From Liolophura sinensis (taxonomy: Eukaryota; Mollusca; Polyplacophora; Chitonida; Chitonidae), in contig NC_088303.1 in the NCBI RefSeq assembly GCF_032854445.1, positions 15,011,501 to 15,075,500 on the forward strand: DNA of 64,000 bases, in the 5' to 3' direction. This document shows, in pieces, positions 33,970-39,900 of this stretch (within the stretch, counting starts at the first letter, position 1; each line of letters starts with the position of its first letter). The position numbers and the translations under genes were made by a program. The notes under the pieces were generated by a model, which had not been told where the DNA came from, searched no databases, and worked only from the letters and a program-made list of their open reading frames with translations.

Positions 33970-36900
33970 CTGCAAGAACCAGGGAGAAAAAGTACTGAGG
34001 TAAAACGACATCTAGAACAGTTTTGATTTATAAACAACAGCATTTGGTCAGTCAGCACTTGGGTGAACATCTCGATCAATGAAGTCTTTAACAAAAATTA
34101 ATGTTAATTAATGTTAAAGGAGTAGTAAACATAACGAGGCATTCAGAGAATGCCTGTAGCTCGCCTGACTGAGTAGGTTGTAAAACTGCTTAATGTTCAA
34201 GTCGTGTGACACATTCAAATATTGACCTCTAAACCAAAAAAGCAGAATGATTGACACTGCCATACACAGATATTATCCTCTAATTATACAGTGCTAAGAT
34301 CCTGCCATTAAATCAACAAGAAAGACCAAAATTATTATACTGAGCTAACTATGAATGTTTATGGTAAGCATAAGGATTGCACAGTAGTGACTTCAACTGT
34401 TATGGAGTAGTCAATCATTGCTGGTTACAGACACTGTGGTGGGGTTAGTGCATAACTTTACCAAAATTACACTGATATGCAAATCACAACCTGCATTTCG
34501 CAATCCATGTACTATGGGAGGCAATTGCAACCATATAAATAGCTGAAGAAAATGTTGAGTTATGAGGTAAAAGACTTCCTTGGTCTTTCATATGCAAATC
34601 GCAACCAAAGATTGGTTATCTGTGTACTATGGGTGCCGCTGCAACCCTATGATTGACCAGAAACTTCAAACCAAACTGGACACTGCCACTCCCACTGCCA
34701 CCCCAACTGACACCATCTGATCCCCCTCATACAATACCTCCCCTTACTTTGTAAGGTGAGCTAAAAATGATGCCAAAATCAGATGAAAGGGTGTGAAATT
34801 TCTTTGGAAACATAACCTAAAATATTTTTTTCAGGAGTAAAGGTATTTGAAAATCAAATTTTTACAATTGCCAGGCTTTTTCAAGGCTTAAAACAACAAA
34901 ACGTACCTCAGCCATGACTTGTCTGCACACACCACAGGGATAGATAAACGACAAAACCTACCTCAGCCCTGACTTGTCTGCACACACCACAGGGACAGAT
35001 AAACAACAAAGCGTACCTCAACTGTGACTTGTCTGTGCACACCACAGGAACAGATAAACGACAAAGCGTACCTCAGCCGTGACTTGTCTGCACACACCAC
35101 AGGAATAGATAAACGACAAAACCTACCTCAGCCCTGACTTGTCTGCACACACCACAGGGACAGATAAACGACAAAGCGTACCTCAGCCATGACTTGTCTG
35201 CACACACCACAGGGATAGATAAACAACAAAATTTACATCAGCCGTGACTTGTCTGTGCACATACCACAGGGACAGATAAAACGACAAAACCTACCTCAGC
35301 TGTGACTTGTCTGTACTCACCACAGGGACAGATAACGACAAAACCTACCTCAGCCCTGACTTATCTGCACACACCACAGGGACAGATAAACGACAAAATT
35401 TACATCAGCCGTGACTTGTCTGCACACACCACAGGGATAGATAAACGACAAAACCTACCTCAGCCATGACTTGTCTGCACACACCACAGGGACAGATGAA
35501 CGACAAAACCTACCTCAGCCATGACTTGTCTGTGCACACACCACAGGGATAGATAAACGACAAAACGTACCTCAGCCGTGACTTGTCTGTGCACACACAA
35601 CAGGTATAGATAAACGACAAAACGTACCTCAGCCGTGACTTGTCTGCACACACCACAGGGACAGATGAACGAAAAAAACCTACCTCAGCCATGACTTGTC
35701 TGTGCACACACCACAGGGATAGATAAACGACAAAACCTACCTCAGCCGTGACTTGTCTGTGCACACACAACAGGTATAGATAAACGACAAAACCTACCTC
35801 AGCCGTGACTTGTCTGCACACACCACAGGGATAGATAAACGACAAAACCTACCTTAGCCGTGACTTGTCCGCACACACCACAGGGATAGATAAACGACAA
35901 AACCTACCTCAGCCGTGACTTGTCTGCACACACCACAGGGAGAGATAAACGAAAAAACCTACTTCAGCCGTGACTTGTCTGCACACACCACAGGGATAGA
36001 TCAACGACAAAACCTACCTCAGCCATGACTTGTCTGCACACACCACAGGGATAGATAAACAACAAAACGTACCTCAGCCATGACTTGTCTGCGCACACAC
36101 CACAGGAGAGATAAACAACAAAGCGTACCTCAGTCATGACTTGTCTGTGCACACACAACAGGGATGGATAAACAACAAAACGTACCTCAGCCATGACTTG
36201 TCTGTGCACACACCACAGGGATAAATAAACAACAAAGCGTACCTCAGTCATGACTTGTCTGTGCACACACAACAGGGATGGATAAACAACAAAGCGTACC
36301 TCAGCCATGACTTGTCTGCACACACCACAGGGATAGATAAACGACAAAACCTACCTCAGCCATGACTTGTCTGCACACACCACAGGGATAGATAAACGAC
36401 AAAACCTACCTCAGCCCTGACTTGTCTTTGCACACACCACAGGGATAGATTAACGACAAAACGTACCTCAGCCATGACTTGTCTGTGCACACACCACAGG
36501 GAGAGATAAACAACAAAGCGTACCTCAGCCATGACTTGTCTGTGCACACACCACAGGGATAGATAAACGACAAAACCTACCTCAGCCATGACTTGTCTGC
36601 ACACACCACAGGGATAGATAAACGACAAAACCTACCTCAGCCCTGACTTGTCTTTGCACACACCACAGGGATAGATTAACGACAAAACGTACCTCAGCCA
36701 TGACTTGTCTGTGCACACACCACAGGGAGAGATAAACAACAAAGCGTACCTCAGCCATGACTTGTCTGTGCACACACAACAGGGATGGATAAACAACAAA
36801 GCGTACTTCAGCCATGACTTGTCTGCACACACGACAGGGATGGATAAACAACAAAGCGTACCTCAGCCATGACTTGTCTGCACACACGACAGGGATAGAT

Positions 36901-39900
36901 AAACGACAAAACGTACCTCAGCCATGACTTGTCTGCACACACCACAAGGATAGATAAAGCTTTCGAGATCACTGAAAAAAAAACACACCACCAAATCAAA
37001 AGCTTCTCGAGATCCTTCAAATCTGAATAGTTGTTACTGTAATAGTGAGCGAACATTATGGTAACAAAACCCTATCTCCGCATGTCTGTCTTCATTGACA
37101 AGACAGCAGGTTTCTTTATTTATTTGATAGGCAGTTTATGCCACACTCAAGAATATATCATTACACTTATTTTAAGCATACTTTATTTGGATCATGGAAC
37201 AAAAGTAAGCACAATACTTGTAGTATTGTTCCATTTATATATGGAGAGGCAACTGGCTTACAATAATATTACACTTTGGCAGAGGCCAGCATTATGGTGG
37301 GCAGGGGTTGAAATGTTTTTCTAAAACCACCTGTCACAGAGACAGGTAGATTTTTTTTTGTACCTGTTACCTGCAGTCTGACTTTCACAAAGTCAATAAA
37401 CTGCACTAACACTACCAATCGCCATGCATTGTCGCATTTTGCGAAGATATAATTTTAGTTTGGCGCAATCATTCCATTAACATCGCAACCTTGGCAAAGC
37501 AATAGGGCCTATGTGGGACACGAGTTTACGAGAGTTCCGCTTGACGATGCTCATGTACACACCGGAAGTTGGGGTTAGAACCCTGGCAGTACATGGCCTC
37601 TTTGCATGAGCAGTGGGCGAATAAAGCGTTTTTCTAACCCCAGCTTCCAGTATATGTGCGAGCACCCCCATGTGAAACTCCCGTGAACTGTGTCCTGCAT
37701 AAGCCCTATATCAGTCTACCGTGTTACAAGAATATTTTGTTTCAGTAGCATTTCCCTTTTTATTCAATATTCTGTCAGGACTGGGACTTGTGCACAGTTG
37801 GTCATCAAAACAAAGCTTACTTGCAAGAGCTCAGTCTGTATTTGTGTACGCATTCCTTTCCCATTCAAGGGAAACAACTGAGGAAAAGAATCCTGTCTGT
37901 GTGCGTTTATATGTCTTGAATTGCTCCCCTTTACACCTGTAACGCCACGCACAGTCCTTGAGCGTTTTTCACATTTTATTATCATTTATTTATTTCACTT
38001 GTGTTTCATGCTATACTTGAGAAGATTTAATTTATATGATGATGGCCAGCAACTTGCACCGACTACAAATGCAAAGGTGAGAGATTCCTGAGCCGTGTGT
38101 GACACTTGTTCTCTAGTTCAGGTAGACTGGCGCTGTTTGTTTCGTCACAGCTGTGGACCCTTGTGAAAAAGTGTTAGGAAAAGCATCTTTGTAGATCTAA
38201 TTTTGTTGCAGTTATGAGAATGAAGTGCATTCTTCAGTGTTGAAGGTATGTTTGGTCTCGGAACTGAAAGCATAAATGCAGTAGGTTTGTCGATAATGAC
38301 ATTGCGTGTGCACTTAATGGTGCCCTAACATTGTTGACTTCTTGGGGCTGAAAATGACGAAGTCTTGAGACAAGAGTTTATTTTGATTATCAGGGCGCCA
38401 AGTACATGTAAATATACAGACTTCACAAACTCAGGCATGGATACTGACTTGAACATGACTGCAAACTTATTGGGCCTACCTGTCGGCGAATTTTTTTGTG
38501 ACCTGTTGCTGATAAATATTGCTTGTCGCTGACAGGTAGACAGGCATTATTTTGACCCCTGGTGGGAGGATATTCAATTGATATAATTGACCACCATAAG
38601 TACACACATTTCTCAGAACAGAACTAATGCAGTTGGTACAGGGACACATAGCTTCCATGACAACTCTACCATTGTGACTATCATTACTCCCATGACTTCG
38701 CCCTGCGTATATCCACAAATTCCCCGTCCAGAGCAGCCACAGCTCGTTAATTACCAAATACCTAAACCCATTTTCACAACGATGGCGTACAAAGTACGAT
38801 AATCGCACATATAGGACAATGGTACCTTAACACAGATGTAAAAAATATTGTACGACAAATTTACGATTAAAAACATATTGCACGCCATTTTGTGAAACTG
38901 GGTTCTGATCTCTACTAGAATAGAAGAAAAAAAAAGCTGAGGGCCTACCTGGCAATGACAATAGCCTTGAACTTCCTGGAGCCTTCAGACACGGCCTTGG
39001 CTATGGCCGTTCTTTCTGCGCAGATACTCGGGCTATAACAGGCATTCTCCACATTACAACCTAGCAAACAACAAATCAGTGACACAGGTATAGACCATAA
39101 TTATAATCTGGATATATGTAATTATGATAAACAAAAACTGATGCCATCGACATTAATGAATATCTCATATTTTTATTTTTTTTTCCTAACTTTATATATG
39201 TATATATATACTCGTGTAGATAATAATTATAAGCAATGTTAATGATGAAAAAAATGTTTTATCTGCAACAAACTGCTGCTGTAAATATTTATGCAAAAGA
39301 AACTTCAGATCAGTAGTATACTTTGTTTTTTCTTTATCAACTTAGATAAGTCAATTGTGTTCCAGATTACGCTTACAAAAAATATTATTTTGGGTACGAA
39401 ATTGATAATTAATAATTAATTATGGTAACATCTGTGAAACACAACCAAAAATGATCTTGTTTCCAACAATTATATATTATACAGACCATTAGAATTTAGG
39501 GTAACAGCCCTATTTCAAGTGGCCTTGACAGAGCAGGTTTTCCCTGTGATCAGAATACATGTAAACACATTGGTTTAAAAGAAAAAGCCACCTAAAAATG
39601 AAGACAGTGCAAATTGTCTCTAAAATGATTTGGTTATATATGTTATCAGGGGTTCTTAGACGTCAAAATGTTAACTTCCCTATTTGAAATACTGTTGTTT
39701 TTTTAAGTCATTTTGAGTATTTTTAGATCTAAATGCCCAATAGTAATGCCATACTAAGTTTTTTAAATATCTACCATAGGCCAAACTTAAAATATTGTTT
39801 GCTTGATGTTACAAGCCCTTTATAACAAAAGAGGGTATCGGTAGGTATTGGCAATTCTCAAAATAAATATTCTTAGATCGTTACAATAAAACTAACAATA

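Follow-up and report, generated by a model that had tools for sequence, protein, structure and literature searches.

A long array of exon-donor copies in a cytidine deaminase intron of Liolophura sinensis: a mirage in a mollusc

The cytidine deaminase gene CDA of the mollusc Liolophura sinensis carries, directly behind the 5' splice site (donor) of its fourth exon, 36 tandem copies of the end of that exon together with the donor itself. The gene lies on the minus strand of a 64,000-nucleotide stretch of contig NC_088303.1 (positions 15,011,501 to 15,075,500), called the window below, to which all coordinates refer unless another contig or locus is named. The array is a real and long donor mirage in a mollusc, that is, a large example of an already described kind of repeat, and in all likelihood it is a near-neutral expansion of the intron that was born from a tandem duplication spanning the donor. 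Exons 2 to 5 of the gene joined in frame give 141 residues and end at a stop; the joined exons score 148.4 bits against TIGR01354 (cut-off 113.65), and the product matches the deposited cytidine deaminase 1zab (E 4.1e-45). The original prediction made for this stretch had named the gene CDA, which the joined exons bear out, and judged by its coding sequence it is an intact cytidine deaminase gene, of which exon 1 was not located. The features of the gene and of the array are the following, in the direction of transcription.

44664-44777, minus strand: CDA exon 2
38949-39060, minus strand: CDA exon 3
from 36972 on, minus strand: T-rich acceptor TTTTTTTTTCAG, just upstream of exon 4
36917-36971, minus strand: CDA exon 4, 55 nucleotides (nt), its first encoded residue, S, split with exon 3
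36959-36971, minus strand: first 13 nt of exon 4, outside the copied unit
36917-36958, minus strand: final 42 nt of the exon, from which the repeat unit derives
36911-36919, minus strand: true 5' splice site of exon 4, GAG/GTACGT, U1 duplex -6.5 kcal/mol
34894-36916, minus strand: intronic tandem array of 36 copies, each with a GT donor, the units mostly 55 or 57 nt apart
33824-33969, minus strand: CDA exon 5, the last coding exon, with stop TGA

The repeat unit consists of the last 42 nt of exon 4 and intron positions +1 to +13, and the array starts directly behind the exon 4 donor; the first 13 nt of the exon and the T-rich acceptor are absent from the unit, as had been predicted. Tandem Repeats Finder (TRF) gave one row at 34891-36958 with a period of 55, 37.1 copies and 90% match, and a donor-anchored count found 37 donors, namely that of exon 4 itself (first intron base 36916) and 36 intronic ones, the last of them at 34906. 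Both confirm that the original observation of about 36 tandem copies of exon 4 sequence in the following intron was real. The anatomy proposed for the unit was also right, with the correction that the copied part of the intron totals 13 nt with the donor counted in, and the proposed 55-bp length holds for 19 of the 36 unit spacings; the other 17 are of 57 nt (13, through a CA insertion), 56 nt (two), 54 nt (one) and 58 nt (one). Between the end of the array and exon 5 the intron runs on for about 0.9 kb of non-array sequence. The 36 units include 30 distinct sequences, and the longest exact repeat inside the array, a block duplication, measures 235 bp (offset 226); this is ordinary minisatellite turnover. 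When 132 nt of exon and array were used as a query against the whole assembly (609 Mb in 632 contigs), all 36 matches listed fell in the CDA array, these counts being lower bounds, and a dispersed element was rejected on this ground. On contig C8 of this assembly eight haemocyanin domains of the molluscan family PF14830 stand in tandem, as fits a mollusc.

According to the original prediction, such a minisatellite matched no described element. This fails, since repeats across exon-intron boundaries have been published as 'mirages' in amphioxus and a minisatellite of human IFI6 supplies splice donors. In amphioxus, the mirages of Adh3 and of the globins BflGb6 and BflGb9 are built of minisatellite-like units spanning an exon-intron boundary, many of them with AG/GT; they undergo concerted evolution within a cluster, and 5' as well as 3' boundaries can be duplicated (PMC3087553, PMC3902484). 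Lancelet TnC and PGBD5 are likewise reported with mirages (PMC3902484). The CDA array is alike in that its tandem unit straddles an exon-intron boundary in an intact gene (42 nt come from exon 4 and 13 nt from intron 4), its 36 units of 54-58 nt are of minisatellite size, match at 90% and show turnover, and splice signals are kept in many of them (GT at 37 of 37 donors, G at -1 at 33 of 37). It differs in having 36 copies, whereas the two BflGb6 haplotypes have 6 and 3 units of 150-160 bp; Adh3 mirage units measure 10-72 bp. Splicing in amphioxus was moreover assessed by reverse-transcription PCR, whereas that of CDA is predicted from sequence. In human IFI6 (6-16), a minisatellite with multiple splice donors was reportedly described by Turri, Cuin and Porter in 1995. 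Two downstream repeat units of that gene are used as donors and three mRNA species result (PMC4526556). The two systems are alike in that a minisatellite gives one gene a row of donors, whereas the downstream donors of IFI6 are used in mRNA and any downstream donor of CDA would add a stop. In human genes within segmental duplications, minisatellite expansion at exon-intron boundaries, the location also seen here, can alter splicing patterns; unlike the CDA array, those internal repeats average four units of 30 bp and half of them lie in coding sequence (PMC2812944). Literature searches with mollusc, bivalve and limpet terms showed no molluscan case among the titles listed, a weak negative as subscription papers lay largely outside them, and one on competition between 5' sites yielded no papers.

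Splicing at any of the 36 array donors is predicted to yield a longer exon 4 with a common TGA, which begins 106 nt after the exon 4 start. The distance from the beginning of this TGA to the junction would be 4 nt with the first array donor, 59 nt with the second and more with the rest. Because all 36 bring in this early TGA, transcripts spliced at array donors could not make CDA, and among all donors only the exon-proximal one would yield it. We infer that this first donor is the one used. The original view that the array donors look usable was supported by their U1 duplex energies, which in 23 of 36 are equal to or lower than the energy of the true donor, making these as strong or stronger. 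The commonest donor 9-mers are GAG/GTAGGT (15), GAG/GTACGC (9) and GAG/GTACGT (8, the true donor included).

Nothing suggests constraint on the array donors or on the peptide that the units encode. Among 36 donor-anchored units, made up of the end of exon 4 itself and 35 others, mean divergence is 0.111 in the donor core (-3 to +6) and 0.049 in the rest of the unit; selection on the array donors was rejected for this reason. The exon 4 peptide is retained in 6 of 36 copies, all of which belong to the 19 that are 55 nt long, and selection on the peptide was rejected in turn. The active-site content of the unit, to which the original prediction had pointed, therefore looks incidental. Differences between exon 4 and the 19 copies of 55 nt number 9 at first, 18 at second and 25 at third codon positions, with 19 of the 25 third-position differences being one fixed CCT/CCC difference. 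No RNA fold signal was detected in the 220 nt tested (z -1.03), and Rfam at gathering score returned no match in 30000-45000; RNA structure and a known RNA family were rejected as explanations within these scopes.

Information on the age of the intron comes from a second CDA gene at C9:34759635-34761888 (L001). Its exon 4 (L001:3284-3338) is also 55 nt long and of equal phase, is identical to the window exon 4 at 35 of 55 positions and ends in the donor GCTGAG/GTAAGA; no array is listed at its exon 4 intron, which sits at the equivalent position. Because exon length, phase and intron match in this paralog and the array is missing, the intron very likely predates the array. The presence of the second CDA gene may also relax constraint on the window copy. 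It is likely that a tandem duplication by chance spanned the 3' end of exon 4 and its donor, and that the duplicate grew into an array through unequal exchange or slippage. The triplet TTT is common to the unit junction GT(T/C)G-TTT-ATC, the exon sequence AAGC-TTT-ATC and the distal intron sequence GTTG-TTT-TAAG, an overlap that fits short-overlap tandem duplication and could be chance. Since a tandem duplication across the donor leaves the first exon and donor intact, splicing from the first donor would still give a normal mRNA, and the array would for that reason be tolerated as near-neutral, as one among the numerous tandem arrays of a mollusc genome rich in minisatellites. Tandem repeats with a period of at least 10 occupy 9.7% of the window (25 loci) and 8.4% of 96 kb of contig C9 (18 loci), the latter sampled as 12 pieces taken at the first 12 among 15 randomly chosen positions.

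Similar arrays were found elsewhere in the assembly. Donor-bearing arrays were taken from among the matches listed by three pattern searches, at 13 of 15 places for CAGGTAAGT, 19 of 19 for AAGGTAAGT and 8 of 8 for AGGTANGT, L017 among these last; the other two CAGGTAAGT places were L017 again and C3:23271050. Left out before the arrays were counted were L014, L016 and L017, whose arrays run up to the end of the piece, L042, which has no donor-bearing TRF row, and C3:23271050. The upstream edge was seen for 36 arrays (13, 18 and 5 per search; that of L031 partly), and in some pieces related repeats sit further upstream. Exon-like frames at 14 of the 36 were selected visually and then searched for homology, the other 22 arrays being judged by eye. 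At least six of the 36 adjoin exons identified by homology, which further weakens the novelty first claimed for the CDA array; a seventh is weak.

L034, C2: SMAD2/3 exon with donor array (6.1e-29; MH2 domain)
L027, C1: GH31 maltase-glucoamylase-like exon with donor array (9.5e-25)
L019, C1: RPTOR exon with donor array (7.9e-15, PDB search)
L025, C1: POLR3A exon with donor array (5.9e-9, PDB search)
L052, C12: MED12 exon with donor array (3.1e-9, PDB search)
L046, C8:1479700-1481500, minus strand: ankyrin repeat exon with donor array (E 0.00017, 22.2 bits, cut-off 21.1)
L028: weak seventh, DERA (E 0.0027; no match in Pfam or PDB)

RPTOR, POLR3A and MED12 are essential genes. In family searches, the POLR3A frame had no Pfam or NCBIfam match, the MED12 frame no Pfam match, and the RPTOR frame only a sub-threshold RVT_thumb (E 0.079). 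Frames that stayed uncounted gave no family match in Pfam and NCBIfam (L015), in Pfam, NCBIfam and PDB (L033), in Pfam and PDB (L043) or in Pfam (L022, L037, L039 and L044). All seven identified arrays run downstream from the donor of their exon, the side examined, as in CDA. Array donors at least as strong as the first donor of the piece number 5 of 6 in RPTOR, 11 of 12 in POLR3A, 7 of 8 in SMAD, 11 of 16 in GH31, 5 of 6 in the ankyrin array, 3 of 5 in MED12 and 2 of 6 in DERA, values biased upward as these arrays were found via strong donor motifs, whereas CDA was found otherwise. Units are a multiple of three in 3 of 8 arrays including CDA (39, 42 and 33 nt), about the level of chance. The ankyrin array (33-nt unit) is open in the frame of its exon to the end of the piece, and its donors, if used, could lengthen the protein in steps of 11 residues; the GH31 array runs into a stop about seven units on. 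Taken together, mirages, described in lancelets, appear from these data to be frequent in at least one mollusc. In L039 (C3:2904450-2906200, minus strand), one repeat unit whose donor is altered to GATAAGT seems to be contained in the exon-like frame, ahead of the first GTAAGT, and looks as though it had become exonic.

Several points weigh against a neutral and accidental origin of the CDA array. None of the 37 donors has lost GTA, or the GT within it, a possible hint of retention, although 29 of the 55 unit columns show no variation; a simple strength rule would not tolerate so many array donors that equal or exceed the true one; the 3-bp overlap may be fortuitous; and intronic minisatellites have been tied to splicing elsewhere, in IFI6 and in CeRep25B of Caenorhabditis elegans (PMC4526556, PMC4039745). 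Match counts across the assembly add to these, since triple CAGGTAAGT is commoner than its reversed control (301 against 158), as is triple AAGGTAAGT (119 against 71, a comparison that stands without a single-motif count beside it). Single CAGGTAAGT shows an equivalent excess (9807 against 4854 reversed), and triple AGGTANGT is rarer than its control (3855 against 4644). All of these are raw matches, not arrays; large arrays contribute disproportionately and copies within arrays enter the single-motif counts, so that the test is weak. Donors as favoured birthplaces of arrays are unsupported by these controls, and the most economical view is that arrays can arise at any place, now and then across a donor.

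If the array were instead a functional splicing or expression element, its decoy donors would compete for U1, part of the transcripts would use them, pick up the early stop and be degraded, and copy number would tune CDA output, in the manner of IFI6 or as a U1 sink. The preserved GT and the strength of the array donors agree with this, as does the common stop, which lies at least 59 nt before the last junction for array donors 2 to 36; IFI6 repeat units serve as mRNA donors (PMC4526556), and CeRep25B is reported to be enriched near multiple alternative splicing decisions, with an influence on splicing raised as a possibility by the author (PMC4039745). However, the donor core diverges more than the rest of the unit, neither a fold signal nor an Rfam match was obtained in the ranges given above, similar arrays adjoin exons of RPTOR, POLR3A and MED12, and lancelet mirages are reported to leave splicing undisturbed and to occur without aberrant mRNAs (PMC3087553, PMC3902484), which renders such a role improbable. 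A wider version, in which donor mirages are widespread in this genome (SMAD2/3, RPTOR, POLR3A and MED12, for instance), array donors serve in a measurable fraction of transcripts and copy number acts as a heritable rheostat, either of output via stop-containing isoforms or of protein length where a unit that is a multiple of three stays open (the ankyrin array and the first GH31 units), must be regarded as a long shot. Tandem arrays are prone to assembly error, and this one is known from the assembly, not from raw reads; nevertheless, 30 of 36 units are distinct, the window is without N, contigs reach 96 Mb and many similar arrays occur in the genome, and the chance of an artefact or a gross error in copy number appears very small. 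Still less can be said for a Rogers-type intron gain, in which an exon segment containing AGGT is duplicated in tandem and the array would be the intron itself. The unit does have AG/GT and exon sequence as that model requires, and a version of it has been proposed for amphioxus globins (PMC3087553). Against it, the paralog shares the intron at the matching position and phase after its 55-nt exon 4, without repeats, so the position is not a new one, and non-array intron follows the array; the model was rejected and its probability is close to negligible. Neutrality of the array, which the original prediction had offered as an alternative to modulated splicing, is the better supported half of that inference.

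The CDA array represents a natural experiment, with rows of near-identical 5' splice sites, many at least as strong as the authentic donor, standing behind exons that need correct splicing. If the first donor always wins, this would be evidence on how the spliceosome chooses among equal donors, through transcription order, exon length or exon context and not through strength. The recurrence of such arrays beside exons of genes that must splice correctly adds to this interest.

Other repeats of the window were recorded in passing. Two related dispersed repeats start with tRNA-like GGCCTCCGTGGCTCAGTCGGTTAGCGC, their heads lying at 33340-33366 and 30648-30674 (minus strand), and are presumably short interspersed elements; repeat sequence of the GGCCTCCGTGGCTCAGTCGGTTAGCGC type also adjoins the arrays in L023 and L047. 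A 27-bp tandem repeat of 6.5 copies, its unit a multiple of three, occurs at 49192-49366.

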